NCBI RefSeq assembly: GCF_000497045.1 | Contig: NW_015961959.1 | Location: 1,363,304-1,427,303, forward strand | DNA length: 64,000 nt | Direction: 5' to 3' | From: Kalmanozyma brasiliensis GHG001 | Lineage: Eukaryota > Basidiomycota > Ustilaginomycetes > Ustilaginales | Shown here: positions 45,181-64,000 of the stretch, piece after piece | How the letters are laid out: each line of letters begins with the position of its first letter | Numbering within the stretch: position 1 is the first letter of the stretch | Notes under the pieces: generated by a model | The model's input: the letters and a program-made list of their open reading frames with translations, nothing else | What the model was told of the DNA's origin: nothing | Databases searched by the model: none | Made by a program: the position numbers and the translations under genes

Positions 45181-45531
45181 TCGGTCGTCCCCACGGGTGT
45201 GGCGACAGGTGTGCGATCAAGTCGTGTAATGTTGCTAACAGGCGACCGCAGTCGGATGCGCAGTTGTGGGTCTTGAGCTGGACCCTGAAAAGCTCTTTGC
45301 CTGAGCGCAAGAAAATTTAAGGTTGATGATCCTTCGGGTGGCCCGTTCCTCCTGCCTTGGCGTGGGTCTTCGGAGCTGCCGCCGATTTTTTTCCCACGAT
45401 GAAATGGCATGCACGGATGCCTTCCGACTTCACTTTGTCACCAACGTCGGACAGCTTCCGAACCGATCTACTTCGCTTCCGTCACAACAGTCACCTCGTT
45501 GGTTGTTACGAGGCGTGGGAATACTTCGACC
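45181..45531. promoter_or_regulatory. Divergent intergenic region
   Basis: 351 bp between the methyltransferase fusion and the uridine kinase gene. The frame in front of the kinase ATG is open, but its upstream part does not resemble the family. No TATA box seen. Confidence 0.5.
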
Positions 45532-47607
45532 ATGCAGGCTGGCAAGATCGTACAGCGGCCGTCTGGCAACGGAACACCCATCTTGCAGCCCGTGACACCT
45601 GTAGACAAGCCCTCGGAAGGATCTCCTCACAGCATTCTCGCCTCTGCGGCAGCAGCTGTTTCACTAGACCACGCACAGAGCTCGTCATCCTCAACTTCCG
45701 CAGCGTCGAAAGGAAAACCTGCTACATCAAATCCGACCGCATCGACTCGCTCAAAGACCATCGTCCTCACCGATGCAGGCCGTGCGCCGTGGTACAATTC
45801 AGTCGGCGAACCCGTCCCTGCCTACGTCGTTGGCATCGCAGGTGGATCCGCCAGTGGAAAGACCTCGGTAGCAAGAGAGATCCTCAAGAAGCTGCCCAAT
45901 GTGCCTTGGGTCGCCATCGTCAGTCAAGATGCGTATTACAAGTCGCTAACCCCTGAGCAACACAAGCTCGCCCACCAGGAACAGTATGATTTCGATCACC
46001 CGGACGCTTTCGACTACGACATCCTCAAGCAGTGCATCAAGGATTTGCGAGGCGGCAAGTCGGTCGAGATCCCCGTTTACAGCTTCGTACAGCACCAGAG
46101 GACTTCAGAGACAAACTACCTCTATGGCCCAGCAGTGCTGATCGTGGAAGGCATCTTTGTGCTTCACGATCCCGAGATTCGCGAGCTGCTCGATCTCAAG
46201 GTGTATGTTCAAGCCGACTCCGACTTGATGCTGGCGAGAAGGATCAAAAGGGACATTGTCGAGAGGGGCCGATCCGTCAACTCAGTTCTGGATCAGTATC
46301 TGCGCTACGTCAAACCTGCTTTCGACACTTTTGTCTCGGCTACTGCAAGGCATGCAGACATGATCGTGCCCGGCTCGCACAACGAGGTCGCCATCGAGGT
46401 CATCAGTCAGCACATGGAGAAGCAGCTCCGCAATCGATCGAGAAAGCTGCGTGCAGAGTTCTACAAGACGCCGGCGACACAGATTGCCACTTCAGCCGCC
46501 AAAGACGCGCATGTGGCTCCGATGAGCCCATACGAGGGCCTCGGCTCGCCCAACGAACGTCGAACGAGCTTTGCCAATATCAAGCCAAGCCTCAAACGCG
46601 ATCAGTCGTTCGGCTTGTCAGCGCCATACTCTACCTCCAGCACATCTGCAGCTGACGAAGCAGGACTGCCACCGAACGTCATCCTCCTCGCTCAGACACC
46701 ACAACTGCAAAGCTTGCTCACTATCCTCCACGACCGATCCACGCCCACGTCGGAATTCACATTCGCCTGCAAGCGGGTCGGCACGCTCGTCGTTGAGCTC
46801 GCCACCACACTGCTGCCCTACAAGGAGAAGGAAGTCACTATTCACGGCGGACGCAAACACATCGGCCACGAAATCAACGTCTCCACCCTGTGCTCTGTCT
46901 CGATCCTTCGCTCGGGTGCCGTACTCGAACCCTCGCTGCGCCGCGCCTTCCCAGCCATGTCGCTCGGCAGCCTTCTCATCCAGTCGAACGAGGAAGACGG
47001 CGAGCCCCATCTCTACGACGTTTCTCTGCCGTCTTTCATTCGTCGCCGCGAAACAGCCGAAAAGTCATGGGTCTTCTTGCTAGATGCTCAGATCGGAACG
47101 GGCGCTGCGGCATTCATGGCCATTCGCGTGCTTCTGGACCACTCGGTCCCGGAGGACCAAATCATCTTTGTCACCCTTCTGGCAAGCTCGCAGGGTGGCA
47201 TTCATGCCCTGAACCGTGCTTTCCCGCGTGTTCGAATCGTCGTGGCGGGCGTCGATCCGGGGCTGCAGAAGCTGCGGATTCCTTGGCAGACAGCAACTTC
47301 CAGCGGCGCATCTGCAAACAAGCAAGATCGAGACGTGTCCTCAGAGTCATTGCACAACGCTGCAGTGGACGAAGATGACCTCTCCCCAGGATTCAATCGG
47401 AATGACAACCTGCACATGCTGGCTTCGCCTCCGCTGCTCAGCATCGATCGTCGGTTCGTAAGCAATGACGAGGCCAAGCAACGTTCGCAGGCTCAAAGGC
47501 AGGGCAGCGTGGGCCAATCGCCTGCGAAGGGCAGCCGCGTCGTGTTTGCCATCACGCCGGGCTGCGGCTCCATTGGCGACCGCTTCTGGGGCACCGGATC
47601 GCGTTGA
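45532..47607 (+). CDS. Uridine/cytidine kinase fused to a UPRT-like domain (Urk1-type)
   Basis: 691 aa from the ATG at 45532. The N-terminal kinase has Walker A GIAGGSASGKTS near residue 100, then VSQDAYYKSLTPEQ, YDFDHPDAFDYDIL, PVYSFVQHQR and the lid RRIKRDIVERGRS, all diagnostic of uridine-cytidine kinases. A Ser-rich linker leads to a C-terminal uracil phosphoribosyltransferase-like domain (CSVSILRSGAVLEPSLRRAFP, LLDAQIGTGAAAFMAIRVLLDH, FVTLLASSQGGIHALNRAFP, and the end GCGSIGDRFWGT). The enzyme salvages uridine and cytidine to UMP and CMP. The UPRT half departs from active enzymes in its PRPP region, as in other fused eukaryotic members, so it may be regulatory. Confidence 0.95.
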   Translation: MQAGKIVQRPSGNGTPILQPVTPVDKPSEGSPHSILASAAAAVSLDHAQSSSSSTSAASKGKPATSNPTASTRSKTIVLTDAGRAPWYNSVGEPVPAYVVGIAGGSASGKTSVAREILKKLPNVPWVAIVSQDAYYKSLTPEQHKLAHQEQYDFDHPDAFDYDILKQCIKDLRGGKSVEIPVYSFVQHQRTSETNYLYGPAVLIVEGIFVLHDPEIRELLDLKVYVQADSDLMLARRIKRDIVERGRSVNSVLDQYLRYVKPAFDTFVSATARHADMIVPGSHNEVAIEVISQHMEKQLRNRSRKLRAEFYKTPATQIATSAAKDAHVAPMSPYEGLGSPNERRTSFANIKPSLKRDQSFGLSAPYSTSSTSAADEAGLPPNVILLAQTPQLQSLLTILHDRSTPTSEFTFACKRVGTLVVELATTLLPYKEKEVTIHGGRKHIGHEINVSTLCSVSILRSGAVLEPSLRRAFPAMSLGSLLIQSNEEDGEPHLYDVSLPSFIRRRETAEKSWVFLLDAQIGTGAAAFMAIRVLLDHSVPEDQIIFVTLLASSQGGIHALNRAFPRVRIVVAGVDPGLQKLRIPWQTATSSGASANKQDRDVSSESLHNAAVDEDDLSPGFNRNDNLHMLASPPLLSIDRRFVSNDEAKQRSQAQRQGSVGQSPAKGSRVVFAITPGCGSIGDRFWGTGSR

Positions 47608-47763: not shown

Positions 47764-48440
47764 TCACGCCTCGTTTTCGTCAATGAGCTCGCCAACGATG
47801 CCATACTTGCCCGTGAAGTGTGCCTGCCACTCCTTCATGTTTTTGCTATTCGAGTCAAGAGCACATCGATGTCAGCTTACTTTGCCACTATCACTTGATC
47901 CGGCAGCGTTCACACTTACACTTCGCTCGGAGTCAGATCCTCCAACGCGTCAATCGGCCTGTCCAGAGGCGTTAGCATGTCGAGATCAAAGCTCTGCTTG
48001 GCCATACCTCTGCTTGCGTCCCTTCCCGCAAAGTTGCCATACGGCCCGCCGGGACCGTAGAAGTTCTTGCCCTTGGTCACGTCGAACACCTTGCGGTTGA
48101 TGGCGAGCAGGATGCGTTCGCCGTCTTGGGTTGTGCCTGTGCCATCGTAGACGGCGAGCGTGCGCGGCGTGTACTTTGTCCTCTCGATCACGTCGGGGTG
48201 GTGCGGGGGCAGGTAGGTGTATCGATCGGACGGAGCGGCGAGGTGAGAGCGCGCTTCGGCTAGCGATGGTGTCCAGCGCGAGGAGAGCGGTGATGATGGC
48301 GAGACGAGCGGCAAGAGGATGTAGAGGATTAGGCCGAGGAGCAAGAGGTTCAGAGGGTTGGTGTAGATGGATTCGGCAAACTTGTGCAGGACAGACAGCA
48401 ATTCGGACTGCTCGCCGAGGGACTGCTTGAGCTGATTCAT
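47764..48440 (-). CDS. Cytochrome b5-like heme-binding protein of the MAPR/Dap1 family
   Basis: Two exons on the minus strand, 47920-48440 and 47764-47845, with a 74 nt intron (GTAAGT donor, AATAG acceptor); 200 aa. An N-terminal membrane anchor (about residues 27-47, PLNLLLLGLILYILLPLV) is followed by the domain: TPRTLAVYDGTG, ERILLAINRKVFDVTKGKNFYGPGGPYGNFAGRDASRGMAKQSF with the heme-ligand tyrosine, and the second exon gives WQAHFTGKYGIVGEL. In yeast Dap1 binds heme and supports P450 Erg11. The second exon restores the conserved end, so the splice is well supported. Confidence 0.93.
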
Positions 48441-48715
48441 GCTGTGCGAAGCCGAATGCCCTGTGAGTCTGTGTACATAGACCGAGATTGTGCGGTGTTG
48501 CTGGTGGTCATGAGGATCAGGGACGAAGACTGCGCTCTTCGACCTCGAACAAGCAGGCGCCAGAAAGTCGGAAGGAGCTTCGGCCCTTCGTCTCCGACTG
48601 CCGAAAATGCCATCTGCAATGCTCCACTTTTTCACCCATGTGTCGATGCTTCTGCCGACCTTCCCTCTCGGCAACAGCCTCGCTCAAAGCTTCCAGCTCT
48701 CATCGACATGTGCTG

Positions 48716-49528
48716 ATGGCGTCCGAGCACGCTCCATGCTCGCTGTTCGGAAGCGTAGTGCAACCAGAGGCGGTGAGCCTTTTCTCGTCCACTTCTTCAG
48801 ACCCTTTCGCACTGTGGGCATTTCATCAAGATGTTGCACTGCCGGAGGACTCAGGCATCCGTCTCTTGATCGACGAGACCGACGAGACGGCTTCAAATGA
48901 CCCCGAGATCACCCACCCCAGCTTTGTGCTGTGATCAGAACAGACGACTCGTGGCTCGAGCTCGGACCCGGTGTTGCACATCCAATCTCCGGCGATCCGG
49001 GACACGTTCGTTCGATGCCCACCTAACGAGAGTGCGGAGCTTGGCATTGAGCTGCCGCTTGTGACGTTTCAGCTCAGAGCTATCAGAAGCTCAAGACCGT
49101 TTGTCTTCGCGGTCGGCATCAGGGACGGAGCTGGACGGCGAGCTGCGATCCGCGTGAGCAGCTTTCAATCGGAGCCGAAGCTTTACCTGAGTCCCACCAA
49201 GCGAATTGCGGGACAGGATGGGGACGGAGAGTCCAGAAACGGCGTCGAAGCACTGCTGCATCTTTCTCTGTCCATGGCCGCTAAGCCAGACCAAGACGAA
49301 ACGTCTCTGACAGCTTGGCAGGTGTTCACGCTTCCACTTGACCGACTGGCCAAGCACCTGTCGGATACCTCGCTCATCGACGCTGGCGCAATACGCAGCG
49401 ATGCAAACTTTGGCCGCTTTCACAGCATTTCGTTTGTCAAAGTCTACGCAAATGTCCGCCTCAGACGGATATGGTGCTCGCGGCGCTTGCCTGATCATGA
49501 CCTCCCAGAATTCCAGCTCTTCTCATGA
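48716..49528 (+). CDS. CFA20/BUG22 (DUF667) domain protein
   Basis: The C-terminal ~190 residues follow the CFA20 domain: VLHIQSPAIRDTFVRCPPNESAELGIELP, an Arg/Ser/Gln strand (AAIRVSSFQSEPKLYLSP), a Trp-containing LTAWQVFTLPLDRLAKH and the end VKVYANVRLRRIWCSRRL... LPEFQLF. The N-terminus (SLFSSTSSDPFALW) matches the domain start. An in-frame TGA at 48932 interrupts the frame. A 78 nt intron at 48861-48938 (GTCTCT donor, ATCAG acceptor) removes it and restores the expected spacing, giving 244 aa; the donor is weak, so this is a model. Known members are ciliary or centriolar proteins, with some in non-ciliated plants. Confidence 0.65.
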
Positions 49529-49724
49529 CACGCCCTCTCAAATTGCGTGGTGGTGTTGTTCTCGAGAATGAAATGTGGAGTGTGAGAGGTGTGGTTAGGG
49601 GTCCTGCATGACATTTCTCCGGATGCGACCGTGCATCCTTTCTGCACACCAACACGATCATCCTCGTTCGTCCAACACGTTCTCATTGACGCGCTTGACC
49701 CCAGCAGGGGCATTACACAGCGTC

Positions 49725-51071
49725 ATGGCGGACGTCGATACCTCACCTCCAGCGGACACGTCCTCCAAGATCGCTACGGCAGTCGCACCCGCCGCTGCCG
49801 CTCCATCACCCACCTCGGTCCCCGCTCCGCGCTTCCTCCTCCACGAAAAGACCCTCGACCTGGCCTTCAACGACATCTGGGCGAACAATGCCAACGCTAT
49901 CTCGCACTGCTACTCCAACACAGATGCACTCAAGGTGGACTTTACCCGCACCGGCAAACGAAGCTGGCTGGGGATGATCAATGATGCGACCAACAGCGTC
50001 TACCGCATGGTCCAAGGCGCAGTGACCGACTTCTTCCGGCAGACCGTGCTTGACTTCACCTACGGCTCCATCGGGCTGCATGGGCTGGAGAAGTACTATG
50101 ACGATCTGAACAGTCGAGACCCGAGCGAGTCGGTGCGTTTGGCGAGGGTCAGGGCGAGCGCGATCGAGAGCTGCACGCGCGAAGTCGTACCGGAAACCGA
50201 AGAGGTGGTCGGAGGATGGACACTGTGTTCTCCACTGCAGAAGGACACAGTGCAGGCGCTGAAGCTGGAAGAGAAAGTGGTGCTGCTGACGGCGAAAGCG
50301 CTCTACGTCTGCAGCTACGATTTCGGCAGCGAGAAGCTCAACGAGTTCACAAAGGTCCTCGTCGGCGACATCGTCGGCATCCAAGAAGGTACGTTTCGAT
50401 CCACTTCCAGCTGTTTTGACTCCCCATCATGCTTGCTGACCACAGCTCATCTTTCGACACCAATACTCGTCTGACTTCACAATAGGCCTCTATGTCATCT
50501 CGCCGAACGACTCGTCCCATCCGGACGATAATTGGGGGCTGGTAGTGATATACCTCAACAGCATCTCGCGCACCAACACCGCTGCCTCGATGAAAAACAT
50601 CAACCTCGACGCCGCCTCGGCTGCTGCTGCTGAGTCCACTCACATCTTTGCATTCCGCGCAATCACCGACGAGCTGGGCGACACGGTCGTTCCCGACATT
50701 CACGCAGGAGCACGCTCGCGGCATCTCCACCACACCGTCAAAGCCACGTCACGCGGCGAGGCCGAGGAGGACGACGAGGATGGCTGCATCACATCCAAGC
50801 AGAAGGTGCGGCGCATCGTCGAGCACCTCCGCGTGGCCTGCAGCGACGCAGGCGTGTTCGACATCGACGACGAGACTTCCGAGGGCAAGACGCAGTTTGT
50901 CACCCACGAGACGATTCAGAGGTATGCTTTTTCCGTCGTTCTTCAGCACTGGAGTGGAAGCTGATCCGATCTTTGCTTTGGTTTGGTTTGGACAGCCTGG
51001 ATGAGGCTAAGGCCATGATGCCGTACTTTGGCGAGCTGATTGAGGGGCTGAAACGCCGTCTCTGGCTGTGA
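49725..51071 (+). CDS. C-terminal half of a SAC2/INPP5F-like phosphoinositide phosphatase
   Basis: Three exons, 49725-50388, 50486-50921 and 50996-51071, with introns GTACGT...AATAG and GTATGC...GACAG; 391 aa. After an Ala/Ser/Pro leader of about 40 residues, the protein enters directly at the part of the SAC catalytic domain that normally follows the CX5R helix: IWANNANAISHCYSNTDALKVDFTRTGKRSW, then DATNSVYRMV and DFFRQTVLDF. An hSac2-type PH-like region follows (GGWTLCSP... VVLLTAKALYVCSYDFGSEKLNEFTKVLVGDIVGIQEG). The first part of a SAC domain and the active site are absent. They are encoded on the opposite strand at 51304-53607, with the two stops 232 bp apart. Confidence 0.85.
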
Positions 51072-51303
51072 TTTATTCGATACGATCTTGTTCGCCACCG
51101 ACTTTGCTCGATAGTATACCCTGCCATTGACTCACAGATCTGGCAATGGCAATTCCCTTGAATGCACCTGTCACTTGCACGGAGTGGCCTGCTGAGGAGA
51201 GCCCATCAATTTGGATGCAACTTTGATCCTGAACGGATGTATTCGACGATCTGGGTATATGAGGTCGATGTAGACGCGAAACGAAAGGACGATATCGACA
51301 CGA

Positions 51304-53607
51304 CTAGGTGCTGGCAGACCCGACCATGATTCCCAGCTTTGCCAACTGACCCGTCAGCACGTGTCTCGCAAACGCCGATTGCACGACGTTGGTCCGATCC
51401 AAGCAGTCCAGACATGACACCCTGAAGACGCCCGTCTGCCTACGCACCACGTCCACCTTCCTCTCGCCCGCTGTTCGATGATGGTAGTAACCCATCTCGC
51501 CGAGCGTCTCCTCCATCGACCCAATGAGCTTGGCGACGTTCTCGAACCGCATCCCTGAACACTCCTTGTGAAAGTCAAAGTCGACATAATGCAGCTTGCC
51601 CCTGTCCCACCCATCCTGCGATGCTTCTCCACGAAGGTTCTCTGCAGCCTCACGGTAGGCCTTGGAGATCTGCCCTTCCTTGCCACCCTGCTCGGCGAGG
51701 TTGATGCACGTGATATCGCCGTATCTTTCTACTTGAACTGCAAAATGCTTACGACATGCTGCAGTGTTTTCCACCTCGGTCCGCTCGAGCACCGGCGGCG
51801 GCTTGAGCGAGAACGGACTTTGCGACCAGTACAGCGGGATGCTTCCGCGAATCTGGACGAACGACAGCACGTCGCCGATCAGATCGGCCGCAGATGCGGA
51901 GGACGGCGGCCCACGAAGAACGTAGAGGATTTGCTCGGTCTCGACAAAGTTGGCGACTTGGCCAGACTCGTTGATTCCACGACGCTGGTACCGCAGCCCA
52001 GCACGCTCCTTGGACCGACGCGAGATGACCATCAGCTGACAGCGCAGCACTGCATCCGCCTTCTCGTTAGCGTCAGCAATCGGCTGGATGGGCAAACTGA
52101 CCGTCTGCAGGTAGCCTTGCATCACAGGAAGGATGTAGGCGTGCAGTCCAGCGTGAATGAGGTCCTTGGACATGTGCTCGTTGTGCCAGAACCGCCGATC
52201 GGCTCGCCTCCACAGTGGCAGGCCGGGATACGGCTCGGCAAGCAGGGGAAAGGCGGGTGTCCGTTGCGCATCCTGAGTGCTCGTCGTGGAACTTCGGGCC
52301 TGATGCAACTGCTGCGAAGCTAGCTGCGGGCTGACGTTCGCGTTGGGCTTCGGATTGCCCTCGAGCGCACGCCGCTTGTTCTGCAGCGACGTGGTGAGAT
52401 CAAAGTCGTAGCTGAACCAGAACTCGCCTCGCGCCCAGTACTTTGCTGTCTCACGCACTGCTTTTTCTTCCAGCTCGGCTTGCTTGGCTGCGTGCCACTG
52501 CTGATCGGCCGTTGCAGGCGCGGCTCCAAAGGGTTCCTCAGGCGAGCCAGGCTGTGGCACTTCAACGACGTCATTGGCGGGTTGTGCAGCGTCCGCGAGC
52601 TGAGACTGCGTGGCTGCATCTTCAGAGACGGTGTCGATTCGACCAGCGGAGACAGAACGAGCAGCGCGGGTGAGCCAAGGCCTCGATTTGGGCATGCGGA
52701 GCGTGTCGGCATGTCGCGAGATGGACGAGAAGAACGGTTCTCTGGGAATCGCAGCTGGCGTCTGTACGTCGTCGTAGTCTGACTCGTCACTATCTGAGTC
52801 GCTCTCGGAGGAATCACTTTGATCTGTTGAGGATGCCGCTGGATGTGCCTCAGGAGCCGCACCGCTGCCCTTCGCAGCTTGCGAGCGAATCGCTTGCGTC
52901 GCCTCGTCTTTCAGCAGCGGAATTGCAAGCACACCCGTGCAGCAGTAGATGGGCCGTGTGTCGTGGAAGTAGTGTCCAATCAGCTTGGAGCTGGTGATGA
53001 CGAAAAGATAGCCGCTGTTGAAGAAGCGCGAAAGTCCAACGATACCAGAGCATTCCATTGATGCAGATTCGGCTGTCGAACTGTCGACCAGCGGCTTCCA
53101 ATCAGACGGTGGCAGAGGTGTGATCTTGGCGTCTTTGCTCCAGTCGATCAGGAAGCCGACGTCGAGCGAGGTGATGGAAGGTGGAGCCCCGGCAGCAGCT
53201 GCTTTGGACGTCCCGATGGTTGCGACCTTGAATCCGTCCCCGGAGCCCAGTGCACGAGCGCCAGCCGTGCTGGTTGGCACTATTGTGCTCGCTTTTGTAT
53301 GATGTGGTGATCGCGCGTGTTGGTGATGTGCGTCTAACGAGCTTCGTGGATACACTAGAAGACCCTGGTCCGTAGGTAGGATGCCGATGCGACGTTCGGG
53401 CAAGGGATGCGGGAAAGGAGGCACTGTCCAGGCTGCCATGGCTGAGCTCGAGCCGCGTGACGGCAGAGAAGGACTCGAAGGCATGCTTGGCGACGATGAT
53501 GGGATCTTTGTGCGAGTCTTGGGAGAAGACGGTGTCGCCGTGATCTTGTTGGTCCCCGCTGCTGGCTGCTTGGAGCTGTTGGATGGAGAGAAGATGGCTT
53601 TGAACAT
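51304..53607 (-). CDS. N-terminal half of a SAC phosphoinositide phosphatase, with active site
   Basis: 767 aa from the ATG at 53607 (the TTG further up is not used). SAC landmarks in order: GIVGLSRFFNSGYLFVITSSKLIGH, EFWFSYDFDLTTSLQ, RRFWHNEHMSKDLIHAGL, LMVISRRSKERAGLRYQRRGINESG, FVQIRGSIPLYWSQ, GKLHYVDFDFHKECSGM, and the catalytic CX5R(T/S) element SCLDCLDRTNVVQ with Cys732. The protein ends only 36 residues after that cysteine begins, at LAKLGIM plus six residues. The rest of the catalytic fold is missing here and lies on the opposite strand at 49725-51071. Long disordered insertions occupy residues 230-400. Confidence 0.88.
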   Translation of the reverse strand: MFKAIFSPSNSSKQPAAGTNKITATPSSPKTRTKIPSSSPSMPSSPSLPSRGSSSAMAAWTVPPFPHPLPERRIGILPTDQGLLVYPRSSLDAHHQHARSPHHTKASTIVPTSTAGARALGSGDGFKVATIGTSKAAAAGAPPSITSLDVGFLIDWSKDAKITPLPPSDWKPLVDSSTAESASMECSGIVGLSRFFNSGYLFVITSSKLIGHYFHDTRPIYCCTGVLAIPLLKDEATQAIRSQAAKGSGAAPEAHPAASSTDQSDSSESDSDSDESDYDDVQTPAAIPREPFFSSISRHADTLRMPKSRPWLTRAARSVSAGRIDTVSEDAATQSQLADAAQPANDVVEVPQPGSPEEPFGAAPATADQQWHAAKQAELEEKAVRETAKYWARGEFWFSYDFDLTTSLQNKRRALEGNPKPNANVSPQLASQQLHQARSSTTSTQDAQRTPAFPLLAEPYPGLPLWRRADRRFWHNEHMSKDLIHAGLHAYILPVMQGYLQTVSLPIQPIADANEKADAVLRCQLMVISRRSKERAGLRYQRRGINESGQVANFVETEQILYVLRGPPSSASAADLIGDVLSFVQIRGSIPLYWSQSPFSLKPPPVLERTEVENTAACRKHFAVQVERYGDITCINLAEQGGKEGQISKAYREAAENLRGEASQDGWDRGKLHYVDFDFHKECSGMRFENVAKLIGSMEETLGEMGYYHHRTAGERKVDVVRRQTGVFRVSCLDCLDRTNVVQSAFARHVLTGQLAKLGIMVGSAST

Positions 53608-54196: not shown

Positions 54197-55651
54197 TTAA
54201 GCAAGGAGACCGAAGAAGAGCATCACAGCGCCGAGCACGGCGGTGGGAAGCACAAAGGTAGGCAGCGACGAGAGAGAGGCAGCCGAGAAGTTGCGGCCGC
54301 CCGTGCTGGAGCCGGCGCTGCCTGCGGCACCGCTGCCCGTAGAAAGAGCGGGAGCAGCAGCTCGGCTCGAGGTGATGGTGTGGGTACCCGTGGTGCCGAC
54401 CTCGTTGGGAAGAGCGCCCGAGCTGTTAGAGTAGGTCTCGACGTAGGCATCCGAGGCAGGCTTCTTGAGGCATTGGACAATGGGCATGAGGCTCTGAGCG
54501 GGGCTCATCTGCCTAGCAGCGGGGAGCACGACGTTGACGGCAATGTCGACGGCCTGCTGGTACAGGTCGTGGGCGAGCACAATGTAACCGGTGGAGAGCG
54601 ACGAGGCATTCTTTATGATCGACTCGAAGTTGTATACCACCTCAGCAGGCGAGACGACACCGGCAGCGATACGCCAGTCATTGGTGTCGTAGGGTGCGCG
54701 TCCGGGGGGCGTGGTCCAGATGATAGGAGTGAGACCCATCTGGAGCGAGATGGCACGAACACGATCATCGATGTCGCCGTAAGGAGGACGCATGGTGTTG
54801 GGGGTGACGCCAATCACGGAGCGGATGACCTCCTTGGACCAGCCAAGTTCAGCGACAATCTGTTCATTGGTGAGCGTGGTGAGGGCGTGGTGCGACCAGG
54901 TGTGGACTGAAATCTGGTGACCTTGCTGGAATTCAGTCTGAAGCATCTGAGGACGCGAGATGACACGCGAGCCGACCACGAAGAAGGTAGACTTGATGTT
55001 GTTCTGGTTGAGGTACTGCAGCAGAGTCGGGGTGTAGGGCGAAGGGCCGTCATCGTACGAGAGGCCCCAGGTGTTTTGGTCGGGACAGGTGGTGATGTCG
55101 GTGGAACGGGTGCATTGACCGCACGTCCACCAGCAATTTCCGCTAGCACCAGCTTGTGCGAGGTTGGTGGGGTTGCCACTGCACGAGGCGGAGTCTACAG
55201 TGGTGGTGACGTTGGGAACCTGGGAGAAGTCGATCTGAGACATCCACTGCTGCACCTGAGCCGAGTCGGTGGGAGGGACGACATCGAGCGCAGGGAAGTT
55301 GGAAGGAAGGATCGAGTTGAGGTTGGGCAGACCAGGAGCGCCGGTGACCTGCGGGTTGCTGGCACCAGCAGGATAGGTGGTGAAGAGCGAGGTGGTGGAG
55401 GTGGTGTCGCCGAAACCGGAAGAGATGCCGGCAATGATGGACGAGACGGAAGCAGGAAGAGTTCCGGTGAAGGTCGAGGTGGGGGCGGCCGAAGCGCCAC
55501 CGGTGGCAGCAGAAGAAGAGGCCCCCGAACCCGTTCGGGTCGCGGAGCCAGACGAGCCGGAGCCCGAAGCTTGACGCTTCTCAAAGTCAGGCTTGGCCGA
55601 AGCGATGGCGGCGAGTGCGAGAGGCACAGCGGCGATGGTGAGTTTGACCAT
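54197..55651 (-). CDS. GPI-anchored chitin deacetylase (CE4 polysaccharide deacetylase)
   Basis: 484 aa. Signal peptide about 1-19, with a Kex2-like KR at 25-26, then a Ser/Ala-rich region. A Cys-rich patch at 157-190 precedes the CE4 domain. Its motifs are intact: YDDGP (Asp200, Asp201), HTWSHH (metal ligands His250 and His254), RPPYGD (288-292), a Trp at 312 and IVLAHD with His361. The end is a Ser/Ala/Gly-rich stalk and a hydrophobic GPI-attachment tail. The enzyme converts cell-wall chitin to chitosan at the plasma membrane or wall, which in plant-colonising fungi helps avoid chitin-triggered recognition. Confidence 0.95.
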   Translation of the reverse strand: MVKLTIAAVPLALAAIASAKPDFEKRQASGSGSSGSATRTGSGASSSAATGGASAAPTSTFTGTLPASVSSIIAGISSGFGDTTSTTSLFTTYPAGASNPQVTGAPGLPNLNSILPSNFPALDVVPPTDSAQVQQWMSQIDFSQVPNVTTTVDSASCSGNPTNLAQAGASGNCWWTCGQCTRSTDITTCPDQNTWGLSYDDGPSPYTPTLLQYLNQNNIKSTFFVVGSRVISRPQMLQTEFQQGHQISVHTWSHHALTTLTNEQIVAELGWSKEVIRSVIGVTPNTMRPPYGDIDDRVRAISLQMGLTPIIWTTPPGRAPYDTNDWRIAAGVVSPAEVVYNFESIIKNASSLSTGYIVLAHDLYQQAVDIAVNVVLPAARQMSPAQSLMPIVQCLKKPASDAYVETYSNSSGALPNEVGTTGTHTITSSRAAAPALSTGSGAAGSAGSSTGGRNFSAASLSSLPTFVLPTAVLGAVMLFFGLLA

Positions 55652-63080: not shown

Positions 63081-63177
63081 TGAAAATTGGCGGCAGCAGA
63101 CCCTGAGAGCCACACCGCCCTCTGACCTGCTGGCACGACTTGAAAATAGATGCTTTTTGTTGTATTCACGCGCCGCC

Positions 63178-63780
63178 TTTTTTTGAAATCCCCCCTTCGT
63201 CAGCAAATTCCCCCTTCCTCAGCAGGGAAATACAAATTAAATTCCCGCTCCAACGCAAGGGGAGATACAAAATGTTTATTTCTTCTTTCGGCCATTTCAA
63301 CTTGCCTTGCCTTTTTGCAAATCCCCCTTTCTCAGCAGGGAAATACAAATTAAATTCCTGCTGCAACGCAAGGGGAGATACAAAATGTTTCTTCTCTTTC
63401 CGTCCAGTTTAGACTGGTGCTGGCTTTTTTGGAAATCCCCCCTCATCAGCAGGAAAATACAGTCTTAGATCCAGCAACCGTCCAGTTATTTCTGCTTTGA
63501 CGCAAAGGGAGGTACAAAATGGTTTTTCTTTTTCAATCCGCTCGTCTTTTTGAAATTACCCCCTCCATCAGGAGGGAAATACAAATTTAAATCCAGCAAC
63601 CGTCCGGTCGTTCCCACTGAGATGCAAAGGGCGATACAAAGTGTTGGTTTTTTCATTTGTGCTGTCTTTTTGACCCCTTTCGTCAGAAGGAAGTACAAAT
63701 TGAATTCAGCGAGGGACCAGTGAAGCCCGCTGCAACAGCACAGGAGTACCAAGTGTTTATTCTTGCGTCAGTCCAGTTCA
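63178..63780. repeat. Degenerate subtelomeric tandem repeat, ~113-123 bp unit
   Basis: About five units, each containing a CCCCC(T)TCATCAGCAGGGAAATAC-like core, an AATT(T)AAAT segment, GCAACGCAAGG-like and GATACAAAATGTTT. Core anchors (GGGAAATACA or variants) fall near 63225, 63338, 63451, 63574 and 63689. Units decay towards the telomere. Confidence 0.85.
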
Positions 63781-63862
63781 CTGGAGGGGCGTGTGGATAA
63801 ATAATTTGTGCTTCCTTGCCGTTGCAGCGGGCTTCACTGGACCCTTGCTGTGTTCAATTTGT
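63695..63862. repeat. 42 bp inverted repeat near the telomere
   Basis: Arms 63695-63736 and 63821-63862 are reverse complements at 38 of 42 positions, separated by 84 bp. The left arm overlaps the last tandem unit. Confidence 0.85.
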
Positions 63863-63910: not shown

Positions 63911-64000
63911 TTAGGGTTAGGGTTAGGGTTAGGGTTAGGGTTAGGGTTAGGGTTAGGGTTAGGGTTAGGGTTAGGGTTAGGGTTAGGGTTAGGGTTAGGG
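63911..64000 (+). repeat. Telomeric repeat (TTAGGG)15
   Basis: Fifteen perfect TTAGGG units running to the window end, in the orientation expected for a right chromosome end. Confidence 0.99.

Follow-up and report, generated by a model that had tools for sequence, protein, structure and literature searches.

A Sac2/INPP5F-type phosphatase gene split in two in smut fungi: a probable two-chain enzyme

In Kalmanozyma brasiliensis GHG001 (genome 17.27 Mb, 26 contigs), the terminal 64 kb of contig C12, referred to here as the window and numbered from its first nucleotide, contain a Sac2/INPP5F-type phosphatase spread over two convergent genes, one on the minus strand encoding an N-chain with the SAC domain and one on the plus strand encoding a C-chain with the hSac2 domain. 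Because the two domains are not in one polypeptide and lie on opposite strands, the locus is a split derivative rather than an ordinary member of the Sac2/INPP5F type. An old gene fission probably gave rise here to a two-chain enzyme, an outcome we favour over one in which the halves have taken up new roles.

The N-chain gene (51304..53607, minus strand; ATG at 53607, stop codon at 51306-51304) is a single exon of 767 aa carrying SacN and a catalytic core that includes the CX5R loop. It matches positions 2-305 of the 305 in the Pfam SAC profile, Syja_N (E 1.3e-80), so that this Pfam domain is present and whole. The CX5R(T/S) motif, CLDCLDRTN, occupies residues 732-740 (51388..51414, minus strand), and the C-terminus reads ...SCLDCLDRTNVVQSAFARHVLTGQLAKLGIMVGSAST; the N-side break point lies at 51304..51324 (minus strand), where LGIM is followed by a tail, VGSAST, and the stop. 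The database entry P0014 (463 aa) is identical to the N-chain product but begins at an internal Met and is without ~300 N-terminal residues, homologues of which are present in many relatives.

The C-chain gene (49725..51071, plus strand; ATG at 49725) encodes 391 aa in three exons (49725-50388, 50486-50921 and 50996-51071) separated by GT-AG introns of 97 nt (50389..50485) and 74 nt (50922..50995), and its product is 100% identical to the database protein P0033 of K. brasiliensis GHG001. A new N-terminal leader of approximately residues 1-42 (49725..49850) precedes the detached SAC segment, residues 45-115 (AFND-WANNANAIS...DFTRTGKR..., 49857..50069), which corresponds to yeast Sac1 from residue 435 onward. 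The hSac2 domain follows (PF12456, E 2.2e-28; residues 136-244, 50130..50553, broken by the first intron). Beyond the detached segment the C-chain no longer matches yeast Sac1; the hSac2 part matches the human Sac2 structure 4xuu. Because the leader, with its own ATG, is partly conserved among split species, it points to independent translation of the C-chain: a T-EKIATAVAP motif recurs in most Ustilaginaceae-type sequences, the counterpart is MATDKHETAVAP in Testicularia and MTADKAATAVAP in P. flocculosa, and only MATDKA is common to Thecaphora. A spacer of 232 bp (51072..51303) separates the two stop codons. The initial annotation, made from the window alone, had described an N-gene ending just past the CX5R helix, a plus-strand gene opening with the segment that comes next and continuing into hSac2, and a C-half with its own ATG leader and clean introns, all of which we find.

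Alignment to yeast Sac1 locates the break. The N-chain aligns up to residue 420-421 by sequence and 431-432 by structure, while the C-chain aligns by sequence from 435-436. A human SAC1 paper citing the yeast structure assigns residues 1-186 to SacN, 187-462 to the catalytic domain and 462-521 to an unstructured region, in numbering that may be human (PMC3731292). The break therefore falls inside the structural catalytic domain, of which the C-chain has the last part together with the conserved segment after it. The earlier description of a SAC gene cut within its catalytic domain into two convergent genes thus stands for the structural domain, but not for the Pfam domain, which is whole in the N-chain. 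When the Violaceomyces palustris protein P0075 (a 717-aa model with both ends lacking) is compared with the K. brasiliensis genome in six frames, residues 2-501 match the minus strand and 512-691 the plus strand of the split locus, separated by 10 query residues; at each of the other three SAC loci (contigs C1, C22 and C21) one match spans the break point on a single strand. The match E-values exclude chance. One-piece proteins have a short variable linker at this point, between LG(V/I/F) and (F)AFND-WANN (much longer in P0031 and in Tilletia), in agreement with the proposed break in a poorly conserved loop. N-chains retain LG-I-x or similar followed by a short tail, led by VG in 18 of 21, and C-chains with a leader retain a helix like TEK-LD-AFND-WANN behind it, and no conserved part has been lost at the junction. 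The two open reading frames together cover the ancestral protein, which is intact in close outgroups.

The split state recurs in other smuts. Searches with each chain scored only the ~8000 candidates sharing most words, against 90% clusters that can hide names. The N-chain search gave 32 matches, 21 of which (including P0014) end in a short tail after CX5R without the later segment; the Melanopsichium model P0016 stops ahead of CX5R, making it the exception among the 22 N-only matches, and in 10 both motifs occur on a single chain. The 21 include Ustilago, Sporisorium, Pseudozyma, Moesziomyces, Testicularia and Thecaphora frezii entries. The C-chain search gave 31 matches: in 19 (including P0033) a leader is fused to the detached segment, four contain both motifs (P0055, which is part of a one-piece gene, and P0061-P0063, which resemble Sac1 and have PF02383 alone) and eight are partial or odd models. 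Identity of the N-chain to relatives is 63-74%, falling to 52% in Testicularia and 41% in Thecaphora, and that of the C-chain is 62-75% for the longer models and 57% in P. flocculosa and Thecaphora. No P. flocculosa N-chain, and nothing labelled Ustilago maydis, appeared among the candidates scored in these clusters. In four cases consecutive locus tags make the two halves neighbours: NDA13_002529/002528 in U. tritici, NDA16_001531/001532 in U. loliicola, ACQY0O_008290/008291 in T. frezii and L1887_56518/56517 on a smut contig within a Cichorium record. Equal contig sizes suggest that P0010/P0038, P0012/P0049, P0013/P0054 and P0021/P0043 each share one contig. Outside K. brasiliensis, adjacency is thus known from locus tags, and strand was read in K. 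brasiliensis alone; pattern scans for the DNA of other split loci in genome contigs and viral contigs returned 20 and 38 matches, none confirmed. Two of the proteins, P0019 and P0056, are smut proteins filed under endive (Cichorium endivia, a 38,015-bp contig). Except at a model gap, P0019 is almost the same as Moesziomyces aphidis P0008, and the endive record therefore contains a smut contig.

Contiguous relatives place the split on the tree. In a search with the one-piece query, 108 of 111 new proteins among the matches listed (120 of 1441) have both Pfam domains, and in the remaining three a single chain contains both motifs; Pfam domains were used here as motif patterns miss variants in 21 of the 111. 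These contiguous proteins include that of V. palustris (placed by NCBI in Ustilaginomycetes, order Violaceomycetales), and others whose names we take to indicate Exobasidiomycetes, Agaricomycetes and Pucciniomycotina. No contiguous protein was found in the named Ustilaginales or Urocystidales entries of the N-chain search or, among the matches listed, of the one-piece search, several entries being unplaceable. In the N tree (the window sequence and 13 of the 21 other N-only matches), the 14 split sequences form one clade (100/94) with Violaceomyces as sister (joint clade 100/98). In the C tree (the window sequence and 10 C-chain matches, comprising the partial model P0049 and nine of the 18 further leader-bearing sequences), the 11 split sequences again form one clade (84/76; 82% of bootstrap trees), a moderate support, with Violaceomyces as sister (100/100). 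Both trees also took 16 one-piece proteins, and long outgroup branches were flagged. The comparison with related smuts that the initial annotation proposed thus finds separate halves across Ustilaginales and in T. frezii, the one species by which Urocystidales are sampled, and a contiguous gene in Violaceomyces. On these trees the split has one origin, common to a clade, and both chains are orthologous to contiguous fungal Sac2-type genes, since both place beside Violaceomyces and the genome has a single hSac2 locus (profile searches gave four Syja_N matches and one hSac2 match). According to Riess et al., Uleiellales/Violaceomycetales separated from Urocystidales/Ustilaginales ~209 (137-285) million years ago, and the orders mainly diversified ~250-145 million years ago (PMC4738420); the fission is younger than that separation and older than the one between Urocystidales and Ustilaginales.

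Both halves appear to be held by selection on protein. In neither chain is any 71-residue stretch more conserved than the detached segment: over residues 45-115, split-species pairs differ by 4.3-4.6% on average, compared with 15% (20% with matched species) for the N-chain's best 71-aa window and 22-23% for the rest of the C core (116-250), and the best 71-aa window of the C-chain begins at residue 47. The segment differs from that of Violaceomyces by 6.4%, or by 3.0-6.0% in 12 pairs over another column set. For pairs in the divergence bin 0.28-0.36, the segment distance is 0.047 between split species (22 pairs) versus 0.153 between one-piece species (135 pairs), and 0.038 between Violaceomyces and split species (11 pairs). 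We considered stronger conservation of the segment as a sign of a new interface after the split and dropped the idea, as Violaceomyces-split pairs are equally alike; the tightness of the segment is a property of the lineage older than the split. At C-chain residues 55-73, Violaceomyces and the split species have in common a changed signature, NANAISHCYSNTDALKVDF, in place of, for example, NGDMISQIYAGTRALKGDF in one-piece relatives, and this change too predates the split.

We propose that a one-piece ancestral Sac2/INPP5F-type gene would have undergone fission on the line to Urocystidales and Ustilaginales, after Violaceomyces had branched off, with the break in the poorly conserved loop past the CX5R helix. 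Both chains would be translated and bind each other, the N-chain supplying the SacN fold and a catalytic core that bears the CX5R loop. The first helices of the C-chain (AFND-WANN...) would dock on this core to complete the catalytic domain, and the C-chain would also place the TRTGKR segment near the active site or the membrane and contribute the PH-like hSac2 domain. In animal Sac2, the hSac2 domain is important for dimerisation and localisation and the SAC domain is selective for phosphatidylinositol 4-phosphate (PMC6829663). By analogy, the pair may act as an obligate two-chain 4-phosphatase, the active state of which would need both genes expressed.

Several points weigh against this proposal. 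Part of the detached segment lies in the region called unstructured in Sac1 (462-521; PMC3731292), so that the N-chain might manage alone, and the low predicted local distance difference test (pLDDT) scores of the segment folded by itself, only 53-78, may reflect a modest alignment (78 rows). Over 35 residues, N-chain 526-560 is nearly as conserved (4.3% versus 2.4%), and the segment's extra conservation is not creditable to the split because the contiguous Violaceomyces protein is equally alike. There is also a slight loosening, chiefly of the N-chain: measured to six outgroups, the N-core of split species is 1.1-1.3 times as distant as that of Violaceomyces, and the C-core 1.0-1.1 times. The halves could be imagined to have parted in function, with the N-chain active alone and the C-chain serving as an independent hSac2-type adaptor without rebuilding the SAC fold. 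Such an N-chain would have the whole Pfam domain and CX5R in its favour, as well as a SAC region predicted with confidence when modelled alone and the unstructured Sac1 stretch already mentioned, and standalone hSac2-domain proteins are known in animals (the TPRG1 family). A free adaptor, however, would be expected to loosen the SAC segment, whereas this is the most conserved part of the C-chain, with the helix preceding it kept, and the segment folds with low confidence alone. We consider a parting of functions unlikely, and a two-chain enzyme remains our preferred reading.

The remaining explanations fare worse. Trans-splicing could join both transcripts into one full-length protein, given that nothing conserved is lost at the junction and that in 18 of 21 N-chains a VG pair, hence GT, comes directly behind the break. 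Against it, N-chains reach a stop within a few codons, C-chains have their own ATG leader with conserved residues, and the window reads GTCGGG at the break in place of a GT[AG]NG donor; with no convincing donor, we rejected trans-splicing as very improbable. An assembly error or gene-model artefact, which the initial annotation had allowed for, would find error-prone ground 10-14 kb from a telomere, and the orientation itself comes from one assembly; the two-protein state with the same break nevertheless recurs in Ustilaginales genomes and one Urocystidales species, so that an error would have to recur, which we find barely credible. We give as little credence to decaying remnants of a dispensable gene. 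The slightly faster N-core would fit decay, but the frames are open, the introns spliceable, the catalytic motif residues invariant among N-chains and identities to relatives 41-74% (N) and 57-75% (C). Nor was a complete Sac2 gene, beside which the pair might be decayed fragments, found elsewhere in the K. brasiliensis genome with the C-chain and the one-piece Violaceomyces protein as queries. Since the same break recurs across Ustilaginales and T. frezii, with consecutive tags in four cases, the separation is neither assembly error nor decay, in keeping with the earlier impression that both halves are maintained.

As for how the convergent layout arose, the initial annotation saw an in-place inversion of the 3' half. 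This fits, but the whole gene could equally have been duplicated tail to tail in inverted orientation, with the two copies then losing opposite halves, and this would lead to the same final function. Duplication would give the same layout with both copies working meanwhile. No trace of the lost halves was found in the genome with the C-chain and one-piece queries, although such traces would be gone by now, and we regard this route as quite possible, if somewhat short of an even chance. No exact direct or inverted match of at least 10 nt (10, 11, 12 or 14 nt) was found between the regions presumed to hold the breakpoints (51072-51340 and 49451-49840), so that an inversion has left no scar visible at that stringency. 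Immediately ahead of the C-chain gene, on the same strand, lies a CFAP20-domain reading frame (48935..49528; PF05018, E 1.5e-12), upstream exon(s) of which fall outside the gene model; the fungal group carrying it is without flagella. In the Moesziomyces-like contig of the Cichorium record, one gene model (P0056) fuses a homologue of this frame (65% over 92 aa) to the C-chain, and the C-chain there is therefore also preceded by the CFAP20 frame, not by the N-chain. This agrees with a rearranged order there, and does not give the strand of that N-chain.

Ordinary neighbours by Pfam are a uridine kinase/UPRT fusion (45403-47604, plus strand), a cytochrome b5-like protein (47916-48680, minus strand) and a polysaccharide deacetylase (54197-55651, minus strand). 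The window ends in (TTAGGG)n telomere repeats (63911-64000), ~10-14 kb from the split pair, and ahead of them (63150-63800) alike units CAGCAGGGAAATACAAATT..CAACGCAAGGGGAGATACAAAATG are repeated, as judged by eye.

Compared with contiguous Sac2/INPP5F-type proteins (Violaceomyces P0075, human Sac2 4xuu), the smut protein has the same two domains, CX5R loop, WANN...FTRTGKR segment and hSac2 fold, but is spread over two polypeptides and two genes with a new C-chain leader. It also differs from yeast Sac1 (3LWT, 4TU3, 8C81), which is one chain with C-terminal transmembrane helices (PMC10550967), in that the hSac2 part of the C-chain matches 4xuu instead. Nuclear gene fission with working halves is already known from split-Doa10 of Kluyveromyces, the closest precedent, where the fission is likewise fungal and clade-wide with close relatives intact, the C part is expressed by itself and the halves were shown to reassemble (PMC3464245). 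Split-Doa10, however, is a membrane protein whose break falls between transmembrane helices 2 and 3, its two reading frames lying 508 bp apart with a promoter in the sequence between them, whereas the smut break cuts a globular catalytic domain, its genes lie on opposite strands (in K. brasiliensis) and its clade comprises two orders. Among literature titles and abstract openings, a coverage mostly of journals outside subscription, we found nothing that describes a split SAC gene in smuts. To our knowledge, there are few documented cases in which a globular catalytic domain has been split naturally and both parts retained across a large eukaryote group. The intact gene of Violaceomyces and the split genes of Thecaphora and Ustilaginales offer a before-and-after series for how a folded enzyme survives cutting, and the isolation of the conserved post-CX5R segment on its own chain makes its role testable by omitting a subunit. 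We see an even chance that smut fungi run an obligate heterodimeric SAC phosphatase from convergent, separately regulated genes, in which phosphoinositide turnover would be gated by chain assembly, an arrangement kept in two orders for probably more than 100 million years.

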